From: Tannerella sp.
Lineage (GTDB): Bacteria; Bacteroidota; Bacteroidia; Bacteroidales; Tannerellaceae
NCBI GenBank assembly: GCA_031276675.1
Contig: JAISMO010000146.1
Location: 1 to 32,048 of the forward strand
DNA length: 32,048 bases
Direction: 5' to 3'
The notes beneath the pieces were generated by a model. It was given only the letters and a program-made list of their open reading frames with translations, was not told where the DNA came from and did not search any database. The position numbers were made by a program, and so were the translations under genes. This document shows positions 5,286 through 29,875 of this stretch, in pieces. Within the stretch, counting starts at the first letter, position 1; every line of letters starts with the position of its first letter.

Positions 5286-7376
5286 ATGGATCCCCGTCTC
5301 CAATCCGTCATGTATCTGCCGGGCGTCGGCCCGAAGAAAGCGGCTGTGCTGGAACAGGAAGCAAACATCGTGTCCGGCGAAGACCTGCTGTATTATTTTC
5401 CGTACAAATACGTTGACCGCAGCCGTTTCTACAAGGTGAGCGAGGTGAACGGCGAGATGCCCTACATCCAGTTGAAGGGACATATCCTGCAGTTTGAGAC
5501 GGTCGGCGAGATGAAATCAAAACGGCTGATTGCCAAATTCACGGACGGGAACGGGGTGATTGATCTGGTCTGGTTCAAAGGATTGAAATACATTGAGGAG
5601 AAATATAAAACCGGCCGGGAATATGTTGTCTTCGGCAAACCGACGGTGTTCGGGAAAAGTTACAGCCTGGTGCATCCGGACATGGACCTGCCGGAAGAGG
5701 TGCTGCAAACGGCAAACGGCCTGATGCCCTTCTACAATACGACGGAGCGGATGAAAAAAGCCTTCCTGCATTCCCGTGCCGTTCAGCACATCCAGTATGC
5801 GCTGCTCTCGACCCTGAACCGGCAGATACCGGAAACGCTCCCTCCGCACGTATGGGAGCAAACCCGCCTGATTTCCCTCGCGGATGCACTGTGGAATATC
5901 CATTTCCCGGCATCGGCGGATATGCTCCGCAAGGCACAGCTGCGCCTGAAGTTCGACGAACTGTTTTTTATCCAGCTGCATATCCTCCGGTCGGCACGCA
6001 GCCGGCAACAGACCCTGAAAGGGCATGTATTCGGCAGGATTGGCGACCTGTTTCATACCTTTTATAAAAAATACCTGCCGTTTGAGTTGACGAATGCACA
6101 GAAGCGGGTGATTCGCGAGATGCGCGCCGACATGCGCAGCGGCCGGCAGATGAATCGCCTGCTACAGGGCGACGTGGGCAGCGGCAAGACGCTCGTCGCC
6201 CTGATGGCCATGCTGATGGCTGCCGACAATCACTATCAGGCGTGCCTGATGGCGCCGACCGAGTTGCTGGCGCAACAGCATTATCAAACGCTGAAGGATT
6301 TTCTGAAAGACATGCCCGTTCGTATCGCCCTGCTGACCGGTTCCACGAAAAAGAAGGAGCGGAGCGGGATACTGCCGGCCGTGGCCGGCGGAGAGGTGCA
6401 GCTGTTAGTCGGAACACATGCCCTGATTGAGGATACGGTCGTGTTTGCCTCGCTGGGGCTGGCGGTCATTGACGAGCAGCACCGTTTCGGCGTGGCACAG
6501 CGTTCGCGGCTGTGGGTAAAAAATCCGGCGCCGCCGCACGTGCTGATCATGTCGGCCACGCCGATCCCGCGCACGCTGGCCATGACGCTCTACGGCGACC
6601 TGGACGTCTCGGTGATCGACGAGCTGCCACCCGGTCGCCGCCCGGTCAAAACCGTGCATCGCCTCGACAGCAGGAAGGCCGAACTGTACGCTTTCCTGCG
6701 CGACGAAATCCGGAAAGGGCGGCAAGTGTATGTCGTTTATCCCCTGATCGAAGAAAGCGAAACGATGGACTACAGGAACCTGGAAGAAGGTTTCAGGGTC
6801 TTCCGCGAAGTATTTCCGGAACATACGGTCTGCATGGTACACGGCAAAATGAAACCGAAGGACAGGGAGGATGCAATGCGGCGGTTTGTGTCCGGCGAGG
6901 TGCAGATTCTGGTGGCCACGACGGTGATCGAAGTGGGCATGAACGTGCCGAATGCCTCGGTGATGGTGATCGAAAGCGCCGAACGCTTCGGCCTGTCTCA
7001 GTTGCACCAGTTGCGCGGGCGCGTCGGACGGGGCGCCGAGCAGTCGTTCTGCGTGCTGGTCACCTCCTCGAAGCTGAGCGGCGAGATGCGTAAAAGGCTG
7101 GAGATAATGGTGAACAGCAATGACGGTTTTGAGATTGCGGAAGCCGACATGCGCATGCGCGGCCACGGCGACCTGGAAGGGACCCAGCAAAGCGGCATCG
7201 GCCTGTCCCTGAAAATCGCCAGCCTGACAGCCGACAGCCGGATACTCCGCTTTGCCCGCGACCTCGCCGAACAGGTATTGAACGAAGATCCACAGTTGGA
7301 ATCCTCCCGGAACCGGCTCCTGCGCGAACGGCTGCACAGGCTGTTCGGCCGGAAAAACTGGAGTCTGATCAGCTGA
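5286..7376 (+). CDS. recG: ATP-dependent DNA helicase RecG
   Basis: LPGVGPKKA wedge-domain start, LLQGDVGSGKT, DEQHRFGV, MSATPIPRTL, QLHQLRGRVGRG. Confidence 0.96.
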   Translation: MDPRLQSVMYLPGVGPKKAAVLEQEANIVSGEDLLYYFPYKYVDRSRFYKVSEVNGEMPYIQLKGHILQFETVGEMKSKRLIAKFTDGNGVIDLVWFKGLKYIEEKYKTGREYVVFGKPTVFGKSYSLVHPDMDLPEEVLQTANGLMPFYNTTERMKKAFLHSRAVQHIQYALLSTLNRQIPETLPPHVWEQTRLISLADALWNIHFPASADMLRKAQLRLKFDELFFIQLHILRSARSRQQTLKGHVFGRIGDLFHTFYKKYLPFELTNAQKRVIREMRADMRSGRQMNRLLQGDVGSGKTLVALMAMLMAADNHYQACLMAPTELLAQQHYQTLKDFLKDMPVRIALLTGSTKKKERSGILPAVAGGEVQLLVGTHALIEDTVVFASLGLAVIDEQHRFGVAQRSRLWVKNPAPPHVLIMSATPIPRTLAMTLYGDLDVSVIDELPPGRRPVKTVHRLDSRKAELYAFLRDEIRKGRQVYVVYPLIEESETMDYRNLEEGFRVFREVFPEHTVCMVHGKMKPKDREDAMRRFVSGEVQILVATTVIEVGMNVPNASVMVIESAERFGLSQLHQLRGRVGRGAEQSFCVLVTSSKLSGEMRKRLEIMVNSNDGFEIAEADMRMRGHGDLEGTQQSGIGLSLKIASLTADSRILRFARDLAEQVLNEDPQLESSRNRLLRERLHRLFGRKNWSLIS

Positions 7377-7496
7377 AAAAACAGCCGGGCGCTTGCCGAA
7401 AGTCTTGCCGGAGGCGCGGGCGGATTTCACGCCGACCTGCGGCCGTCCGAAATACAACATTTCACGGAACCTTTGGATTTCGTCTGTTTTGCGAAT

Positions 7497-7789
7497 CTGT
7501 CCATGGACAGAAGTATGAATCCGTCCGTTTTTTAGGATCTGTCCATGGACAGAAGTATGAATTCGTTCGCTTTTTTGGATCTGTCCATGGACAGAAGCAT
7601 GAATCGTTCGCATTTTGGGATCTGTCCATGGACAGAAGTATGAATTTGTCCGTTTTTACGGTTCTGTCCATGGACAGAAGCATGAATTCGTCCGTTTTTA
7701 CGGTTCTGTCCATGGACAGAAGCATGAATCCGTCCGTTTTTACGGATCTGTCTATGGACAGAAGCATGAATCCGTCCGTTTTTGCGGTT
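7497..7789. repeat. Tandem palindrome-centred array 1: 7 units, 42 bp period
   Basis: Units start at 7497, 7539, 7581 (41 nt), 7622, 7664, 7706, 7748. Each begins with the perfect palindrome CTGTCCATGGACAG (unit 7: CTGTCTATGGACAG), then AAGyATGAATnCGTyCG... and a T-rich stretch. Confidence 0.95.
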
Positions 7790-7928
7790 CTTTTGTCTTT
7801 TCCCGGCTCGAACGCACGTTATATGACATTTCGCGCAGTAGGGTTTTGTCATGTTTTTTGTTCACCGGTCCATTTCCGCTCCGGTCGCATCCACACCGGC
7901 ATATCTCCCGCATCTCGGATATTTTGCA

Positions 7929-7936
7929 TATATTTG
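7929..7936 (+). promoter_or_regulatory. -7 box TATATTTG upstream of the Na/Pi cotransporter
   Basis: Matches TAnnTTTG, about 40 nt before the ATG. Confidence 0.45.
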
Positions 7937-7975: not shown

Positions 7976-9790
7976 ATGAACTATTCTTTTTTGGACTTTC
8001 TGACGCTTGTTGGCGCTCTGGGAATGTTTCTCTACGGAATGAAGACGATGAGCGAAGGACTGCAGAAAGTGGCCGGCAATCGCCTGCGGAACATACTTTC
8101 CGCCATGACGACCAACCGTTTCACGGGCGTATTGACCGGATTGCTTATTACGGCGATCATCCAGTCGTCCAGCGCTACGACGGTCATGGTCGTCAGCTTT
8201 GTCAACGCGGGACTGCTTAATCTGGCCCAGGCAATCGGCGTCATTATGGGCGCAAACGTGGGAACGACGGTGACGGCATGGATCATATCCCTTTTCGGCT
8301 TTTCGGTAGATATCAGCGCCTTTGCGCTGCCCCTGATCGCGGTGGGACTTCCGATGCTGTTCTCCAAAAAAAGTAACTGGAAGTCGCTGGGTGAATTTAT
8401 CATGGGATTCGCACTGCTGTTTTTGGGGCTGTATTACCTGAAAAGTTCCGTCCCCGACCTGCAAAGCCATCCGGAAGTACTCTCGTTCATACAGGACTAT
8501 ACCTCTCTGGGATACGGTTCCGTGCTGCTGTTTCTGCTGCTCGGCACCATCCTGACCGTGATTGTGCAGTCGTCGAGCGCCACGGTTGCCATTACGCTGA
8601 TTATGTGTACGCAGGGATGGATTCCCTTTGAGATGGCTACCGCCATGGTGCTGGGTGAAAACATCGGGACGACGATCACGGCCAATCTCGCCGCCATCCC
8701 GGCCAATGCAGCGGCCAAACGGGCGGCCATAGCACATCTGATGTTCAATGTTTTCGGTGTTTGCTGGTGTATCGCATTCTTTTATCCCTTCTCCCACCTG
8801 ATTTCATGGATCATCACCCGGTTCGGGCCGGGCAATCCCTATGAGCTGAACAGTTTTCTCGGCACGCTTGATCCGCAAACGATCGAACTCATCACCTCCA
8901 ACCGGCCTTTGACCGACGCGCATCTGATTTCCCTGCAAAAACAGTTGCTCTCGTTGCAGGTTTCGGTTTCATACGGGCTGTCTCTGTTTCATTCGATGTT
9001 CAACCTCTGTAATATCTGCATCATGATCTGGTTCGTAAAACTGTATGTCCGCATCTGTTCTGCGATCATTCCGGCCGCGCCGGGCGAAACGGAAAGCGAT
9101 TTCCAACTGAAACACATCTCGACCGGCATCCTTTCAACTTCGGAACTGTCGCTGATGCAGGCACGAAAGGAAATTGCCGTCTATGGCGACCGCATCGCGC
9201 GGATGTTCGGGATGGTGAAAAAGCTGCTGTATGAAAAAAACGAAGAACTCTTCCTGCAGCAGTTCAACAGGATCAAGAAATACGAAGAAATCAGCGACCG
9301 GATGGACATTGAAATCGCCGACTACCTGACCAAAGTGCTGGAAGGGAGACTGAGCGCGGAAGGAAAGGACAGCGTACGCATCATGCTGCGCGCCGATTCC
9401 GAAATCGAAAGCATTGCCGACGCCTGCTACAACATGGCACGCACCGTCAAACGCCGAAACGATGCCAAATCGGACTTCACCGGAGAACAGTACCGTCATA
9501 TCGAACACATGTTCCGGCTTGTCGAAGAGGCGCTGGAGCACATGAACCTCCTCCTGCACAAACAGCATATTTCCCAGCATGACATGGCCTGCTCCTATAA
9601 TAAGGAGAATGAAATCAACACCTATCGCGACATGCTGAAAAGCAAAAGCATCGAAAGCATCGACGGAAAGGAATACAAATACTCCGACACGGTGTACTAC
9701 ATGGACCTTGTCTGCGAATGTGAAAAACTGGGCGACTACGTGCTGAATGTGGTTCAGGCCGTGGCCGAGAAAACGTTCAATACACATTAA
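7976..9790 (+). CDS. Na/Pi cotransporter family protein with PhoU-like C-terminal domain
   Basis: Repeated [19 protein letters not shown] and [14 protein letters not shown] motifs, [22 protein letters not shown]; helical PhoU-like C-terminus. Confidence 0.92.
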
Positions 9791-17661: not shown

Positions 17662-17816
17662 CTTGCTGAAACGAAAAAAACACGTTTCGATGTATAAATT
17701 TCCCGTCACGTCCGGCAACCTCACGGAAAAAACGGCGGAGAGCGAGTCGCCCGTCCATCGCCGAAAATAGCCCCCGACACGCTTCCGCAAAGTATGCCGA
17801 ACCGTTGAGGCGCTTT

Positions 17817-17977
17817 GTAATGCTACAAAGCGCCTCTTTGTAACGTTACAAAGCGTCTCTTTGTAACGCTACAAAGCGTCTCTTTGTAACGCTACAAAGC
17901 ATCTCTTTGTAACGCTGCTACTCGACGCAACGTAACGTTACTACTCGACACGACGTAACGTTACTGCTCGACAGGTA
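17817..17977. repeat. Tandem palindrome-centred array 2: 7 cores, 23 bp period, two linker types
   Basis: 10 bp cores GTAACGyTAC-like at 17817, 17840, 17863, 17886, 17909, 17932, 17955. Linkers 1-4 AAAGCGTCTCTTT-type; linkers 5-7 TACTCGACACGAC-type. Core 2 with flanks is the 18 bp perfect palindrome CTTTGTAACGTTACAAAG. Confidence 0.95.
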
Positions 17978-18051
17978 AAAACGCCTGCCCGTATCTTCCC
18001 GATGCAGAGGAGGAATGCTCTCGGAGGCTTGGCTGTCCGGAATAAATCCGT

Positions 18052-23543: not shown

Positions 23544-23660
23544 GGTTCGGCCCGAAGGATGGATTGTAAAAGAAAGAAAGGGGCGCACGCTGTACGCCGG
23601 AGGCGTACCGGAGCCGACAAAGTAAGGCTTGTCGGTGAAAAAGCCTTTGGAAAACAAAGA

Positions 23661-23912
23661 CCGTTTTCCGGGAAACAGAAACCGTTTACGGGGAAATAAA
23701 AACCGTATCCCGGGAAACAGGAAATGTCATCTGGGATACGGAAAACATTTCCCGGAAAATGATTTTCATTTCCCGGGATACGGAAAAATTTTGCACGAAA
23801 ACTGAAATCATTTCCCGGAAAACAGAAACCGTATCCCGGGAAATGAAAAATGCCACCCGGGACACGGCGGACATTTCCCGGAAAATGGCGCCTGTTTTTG
23901 CGCTTTTTCGGG
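23661..23912. repeat. Tandem palindrome-centred array 3: about 11 clear units plus degenerate flanks, 21 bp period
   Basis: Units every 21 bp from 23661, for example CCGTATCCCGGGAAACAGGAA (23703), TCATTTCCCGGGATACGGAAA (23766), CCGTATCCCGGGAAATGAAAA (23829); centre usually TCCCGGGA/CCCGGAA. The 23892..23912 unit and 23640..23660 are degenerate. Confidence 0.93.
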
Positions 23913-24043: not shown

Positions 24044-24092
24044 GCCTGAAAGGCAGGACAAAGCGCCATGCTTCGTGTCCTGCCTTTCAGGC
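24044..24092. other. Perfect 17 bp-arm hairpin in the korB/GH92 gap
   Basis: GCCTGAAAGGCAGGACA (24044..24060) and TGTCCTGCCTTTCAGGC (24076..24092), 15 nt loop. Confidence 0.85.
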
Positions 24093-29783: not shown

Positions 29784-29875
29784 TTCCACATACCGGAAGT
29801 TACCGATTCCATGTCATGGAATCGTACTGTTCCACATCATGGAACAGTACAGTTCCATGATGCAGAAGATCGCTC
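29784..29875. repeat. Tandem palindrome-centred array 4: about 4 units, 23 bp period
   Basis: Units TTCCACATACCGGAAGTTACCGA, TTCCATGTCATGGAATCGTACTG, TTCCACATCATGGAACAGTACAG, TTCCATGATGCAGAAGATCGCTC at 29784, 29807, 29830, 29853. Confidence 0.88.

Follow-up and report, generated by a model that had tools for sequence, protein, structure and literature searches.

A palindromic tandem array between recG and a cotransporter gene

Between recG and a Na+/Pi cotransporter gene of a Tannerella genome lies an array of 42-bp repeats built around a palindrome, which raises the question of what kind of element such an array is and why its palindrome is kept. The window analysed, a stretch of 32,048 nucleotides, holds recG at 5286..7376 (+ strand; Pfam: RecG wedge, DEAD and RecG_dom3_C) and, downstream of the array, the cotransporter gene at 7976..9790 (+ strand; Pfam). 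The array is a worn representative of a small, non-coding and probably mobile element, of which this gut Bacteroidales genome has ~20 copies.

The array was delimited by TRF at 7487..7791 (7.3 copies, 89% match); by comparison with related copies, it is the central part of a dispersed element, and its + strand corresponds to the leader-to-tail orientation of the intact copies. The palindrome CTGTCCATGGACAG starts at 7497, 7539, 7581, 7622, 7664, 7706 and 7748; these spacings (42, 42, 41, 42, 42 and 42) and the TRF result bear out the original prediction of seven 42-bp units, the third being of 41 nt. Six of the seven units carry it exactly and unit 7 reads CTGTCTATGGACAG (one C-to-T change), again as predicted. 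When up to three mismatches are allowed, the window contains 8 matches to the palindrome, where 1.08 are expected; 0 of 100 shuffles reach this number. The predicted 14 bp are thus present, yet the symmetric box is longer, at 16 bp in all seven units (the change in unit 7 excepted) and with full 18-bp symmetry (TTCTGTCCATGGACAGAA) in units 5 and 6. Located by palindrome scan and unit alignment, the boxes (no strand assigned) lie at 7495..7512 (unit 1, ATCTGTCCATGGACAGAA, of class A as described below), 7537..7554 (unit 2), 7579..7596 (unit 3), 7620..7637 (unit 4), 7662..7679 (unit 5), 7704..7721 (unit 6) and 7746..7763 (unit 7, ATCTGTCTATGGACAGAA).

Conservation is concentrated on the palindrome, as had been claimed, with 1 of 14 columns variable across the units there and 12 of 28 elsewhere. 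Units 5 and 6 are 98% identical; the description ‘almost identical’, applied originally to units 4-6, is too strong, units 4-5 being 93% and 4-6 90% identical. Units 6 and 7 are 93% identical, and units 1-3 mutually 74-90%. At the left edge of the array, a degenerate linker (TTGGATTTCGTCTGTTTTGCGA; 7473..7494, + strand) represents the remnant of a worn unit, and a sequence weakly resembling a terminal inverted repeat (TIR), tentatively placed at 7438..7453 (− strand), has 3 mismatches and is not above chance.

Dispersed copies in two species

Further arrays with the palindrome lie on contigs C54, C78, C131, C178 and C187 of the genome of the window (G000, where the window copy lies on C98; C numbers denote contigs). 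A DNA search with the window intergenic region found more related arrays in G000 and in G009, a ‘Tannerella sp.’ metagenome-assembled genome (MAG) of a second, non-sister species of the genus, and no array-type match in the other 39 relatives searched. About 20 related arrays were found in each of the two genomes, and all those examined are intergenic. The G000 assembly consists of 189 contigs and often breaks within arrays (for example at C97, C2 and C4), which makes its copy counts approximate and the repeat counts at contig ends minimum values. With the full element as query, there were 40 matches in G000 and 22 in G009 (one copy can give several), one marginal 69-bp match (G048) and none in 38 other genus members, and order-wide only 25-bp matches in 2 of 343 other sampled genomes. 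The element is found in two non-sister lineages and is absent from the sisters of each.

The order of units 1-3, including the 41-nt third unit, is common to the copies on C98, C54 and C178, and the window array was therefore dispersed as a block; the divergence of these units does not reflect a local history. Copies have no consistent orientation to neighbouring genes, as called by a simple codon-usage script. Two copies, at L040 (C187) and L045 (C120), adjoin a similar duplicated flank (the start of a related gene), which suggests that gene and element were duplicated together.

A phage or plasmid origin was rejected, since searches of viral contigs, of phages and of plasmids gave no match. 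Exact matches to a pair of boxes in Legionella gratiana, within a His/Gly-rich reading frame, and in a Nealsonbacteria MAG, where the palindromes read as VHGQ-like codons, were judged unrelated on reading the sequences. The Nealsonbacteria MAG (L056, 1320-1560) holds several copies of TTGTCCATGGACAA at irregular spacing, apparently within a reading frame of VHGQ-like repeats.

A MITE-like element with leader, array and tail

In the better-preserved copies, when oriented, a ~130-bp leader is followed by 42-bp units, each an 18-bp box plus a 24-bp linker, and by a tail. The element has the TIR GGGTRNATTTCAAANNGTCGCAG, and the intact copies end in ATTTCAAACGGTCGCAGTCCCG (5′) and CCGGGCTGCGACCTTTGAAAT (3′), with the outward extension GGGTRN. 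TIRs at both ends were found on C173 and, diverged, on C131 in G000, and on C45 and C78 in G009. The same TIR encloses a 21-bp array in a 376-bp element of G051 (C73; L294, 1495-1870), and the same ends enclose short array-free elements in G024 and G015. A shorter TIR-bounded stretch is apparently nested at the left end of the G051 element.

Six elements with this TIR measure 57-515 bp. Flanking direct repeats accompany two of these six intact elements, being of 12 bp at C173 and of 9 bp at the G051 element, and random position pairs matched them in 9 of 4000 and 32 of 4000 cases, respectively; at the other four, nothing convincing as a target-site duplication was seen.

Like miniature inverted-repeat transposable elements (MITEs), the element is short, non-coding, multi-copy and intergenic, and its better-preserved copies, though not the window copy, carry terminal inverted repeats. 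It is MITE-like because those copies show leader, array, tail and TIRs. In the window copy, there is no leader match and no recognisable TIR, and what the tail model hits there is confined to the units.

No transposase was noted beside the inspected TIR matches, and no autonomous partner, which MITEs usually but not invariably have, was found in a search of two transposase families in a fragmented assembly. The ISL3 element of G000 was rejected as this partner, as its ends differ from the TIR, and the search for IS1595 transposases in G000 gave no match. Around most other minisatellites of the genome the TIR is missing, and the idea that all arrays of the genus sit inside one MITE was discarded, the TIR being absent near most arrays.

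Whole arrays carry different boxes

In some copies, a different box occupies the whole array within the same scaffold of leader, linker and tail. The boxes are TTCTGTCCATGGACAGAA (class A), TTCTGCCGCTGGTACGAA (class B, the first unit being inverted), TTCTAACTTTAGTTTGAA (class C), TTCTGCCGATCGGCAGAA (class D) and AATTGTCCATGGACAATT (class E), and a further one, ACTGCCGTACGGCAATT, occurs on C93 of G009. The palindrome that the original prediction called invariant is thus not so at family level. Nor is box symmetry universal, because class B, a joint most frequent box, is only quasi-palindromic. Two copies, on C72 and C94, have B-type edges, with a B unit in inverted orientation next to the leader and units resembling A and D next to the tail, and class C boxes in mid-array, a pattern that fits turnover from the middle, by which old variants would be kept at the edges.

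In the aligned units, the box is the best-kept part of each repeat. When palindrome and flank were compared in homologous arrays, as had been proposed, the box was less variable than the linker both within the genome and between species. Non-consensus frequencies in box and linker within the genome were 7.0 and 17.3% for class A, 2.8 and 22.6% for class B, 0.5 and 19.8% for class C and 3.7 and 7.6% for class E, with units classed by box similarity, which gives some bias in favour of box conservation. Between G000 and G009, identity of box and linker was 84.4 and 64.0% for class A and 93.9 and 60.9% for class B, and the class B contrast is too large for class-assignment bias alone. Boxes of different classes diverge to about the same extent as their linkers, or further; the box is therefore kept inside each class and replaced from one class to the next.

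The recG and cotransporter locus

The gene upstream of the array is indeed recG, as originally noted, but a link between the two is unsupported: among 30 relatives, in a non-exhaustive search of loci that were not strand-oriented, an array after recG was found only in G054, with an unrelated 21-bp sequence, and conservation of the array at this position is not supported by the same comparison. The cotransporter gene has its own promoter of Bacteroidetes type near its start codon, with a −7 box (TATATTTG; 7929..7936, + strand) that lies outside the array and has a similar counterpart in near relatives. A complete class A copy is present upstream of the orthologous cotransporter gene in G009, in the same orientation and with a different upstream gene, and none of the nearest relatives of G000 (G006, G051, G048, G011 and G023) has an array there. 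In a tree of RecG and the transporter, G000 and G009 fall in different clades. Independent insertion or horizontal transfer would be more likely at this locus than inheritance with repeated precise loss.

Comparison with known repeat systems

The general type, a transposon-like element with a tandem repeat inside it, has been described before in Porphyromonas gingivalis; what is new here is that whole arrays carry different palindromes. According to the cited sections of Klein et al. (2015; PMC4596501), the BrickBuilt MITE of P. gingivalis has 19 dispersed copies, all intergenic and of variable repeat number, with a 23-nt unit and a TIR (GAGACCTTTGCA) related to IS5-family elements. It resembles the present element in having leader, tandem array, tail and TIRs and in being dispersed and intergenic within the same bacterial order, and three BrickBuilt copies lack leader and tail, as does the window copy. 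It differs in its 23-nt unit and TIR from the 42 bp and GGGTRNATTTCAAANNGTCGCAG found here, and exchange of boxes between copies, present here, is not reported in those sections. The same sections describe repeats of 22, 23 and 41 nt in P. gingivalis, with the 23- and 41-nt ones inside MITEs of nearly identical TIRs. Among them, MITE464/PgRS is also MITE-like with 41-nt tandem repeats, and its TIR, nearly identical to that of BrickBuilt, encloses an unrelated array, much as one TIR here encloses 42-bp and 21-bp arrays; it is unrelated by name and printed TIR, its array flanks being themselves repetitive, and is set apart on this description rather than on unit sequence (PMC4596501). A CRISPR array was rejected, as the linkers are related to each other and no cas domain was found in the nine neighbouring proteins scanned.

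Weighing the explanations

We consider it quite likely that the window array is the central part, still preserved, of a MITE-like element that is dispersed and non-coding, with the following model taken as a whole. The element would run from a terminal inverted repeat through a ~130-bp leader, an array of 18-bp boxes and 24-bp linkers and a tail to a second inverted repeat, and a transposase working in trans at the terminal repeats would have moved its copies. After insertion, the array would grow, shrink and homogenise from the middle by slippage or unequal exchange, old unit variants surviving at its edges, and the ends of the element would decay, as in the window copy. The least certain step is that the box would be kept by sequence recognition, most likely by a putative DNA-binding protein and possibly through hairpin formation; recognition by a protein would be the preferred reason for its conservation.

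An ordinary local minisatellite, arisen by replication slippage after recG around a chance palindrome and immobile, is highly improbable: intergenic DNA of the genus commonly holds arrays that are unrelated in sequence, but leader, tail, TIR and unit order are common to many loci, and these shared flanks already contradict it. Possible, though on the doubtful side, is a multi-site array in which each box would bind a dimeric protein and the whole would nucleate a nucleoprotein complex or silence its neighbours. In the sopC centromere of the F plasmid, the closest analogue in architecture, ParB/SopB binds twelve 43-bp repeats that contain 16-bp inverted repeats (PMC6238139), nearly the same period and box size as here. 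Also in favour, the box is conserved between species while linkers diverge. The likeness is only architectural, however: sopC is one locus serving plasmid partition, with one palindrome and neither TIRs nor dispersed copies (PMC6238139), whereas here ~20 copies and at least six different boxes over two species were found, box B is asymmetric in DNA, and the neighbours of the window copy, recG and the Na+/Pi cotransporter gene, are not partition genes. Such binding can be compatible with the mobile element.

Transcribed tandem hairpins that would act as attenuator, terminator or RNA-processing sites are quite improbable. The RNA of the array has a much more stable fold than shuffled sequences (z = −9.2), but the same would hold for any tandem palindrome; box B pairs better as + strand RNA in 39 of 39 cases and box mismatches comprise 25 G.T against 9 A.C, but much of the G.T excess stems from shared ancestry of edge units, and the strand asymmetry, though suggestive, was set aside as confounded in this way. 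Moreover, class C boxes fold at only about −0.2 kcal/mol, copies lack orientation bias to genes, the window has no Rfam match at the gathering threshold, and no U run directly follows the hairpins; a role as terminator between convergent genes was rejected, arrays not being enriched there. Hairpin-templated (quasi-palindrome) correction at replication, which could keep palindromes without a binding protein while boxes drift as matched arms, agrees with class A, D and E boxes being matched palindromes that differ at several paired positions; it is nevertheless unlikely, as it leaves conservation of the box between species unexplained, including that of the asymmetric class B (94% identity).

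Common periods of intergenic arrays in the genus

Across the stretches sampled from the genus and from a few relatives, there were 113 intergenic arrays with a period of 15-60 bp, and 106 of them have one of 20-24 or 39-44 bp, in a census of uneven sampling to which G042 contributed most and in which TRF periods depend on the representative chosen for nested arrays. After sequence clustering, 57 of 64 families fall in these bins, which make up 24% of integer periods; the clustering, a simple shared-8-mer rule, merged one heterogeneous group of 28. Derivation of 42 bp from 21-bp dimers was rejected, as halves of a unit were similar at p<0.05 in only 8 of 64 units.

The window itself holds further arrays: 23-bp units with an 18-bp palindrome (CTTTGTAACGYTACAAAG) at 17813-17983, between an acetylesterase-like gene and an AAA/PDDEXK gene, which switch at ~17909 to a variant 23-bp unit; a diverged 21/42-bp array with CATTTCCCGGGAAATG-like boxes at 23652-23887, in the intergenic gap ahead of a gene at 24068; and a short 23-bp array with TTCCATGTCATGGAA boxes at 29807-29859. 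Sampled stretches of G042 (a single contig of 3.01 Mb), the richest genome sampled, hold ~20 intergenic minisatellites per 100 kb, mostly of 41-42 bp.

It would be a bold extension, to which we give little credence, that the 18-bp boxes serve as interchangeable modules for recognition, with a putative DNA-binding protein for each class, that whole arrays switch class within a constant mobile scaffold, and that one process of array building gives unrelated intergenic arrays throughout the genus a period of roughly two or four helical turns (20-24 and 39-44 bp).

A family with exchangeable boxes joins the few known bacterial MITEs that bear minisatellites, and suggests that the 22-, 23- and 41-nt repeats of P. 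gingivalis may belong to a wider pattern. That nearly all sampled intergenic minisatellites of the genus have periods close to 21 or 42 bp, irrespective of sequence, calls for one mechanism; the candidates are phased binding of proteins and a helical constraint on array formation. G042, which we take to be possibly a cultured oral Tannerella, is the sole one-contig genome sampled and is rich in arrays, and so offers a complete dataset for the question of the period.
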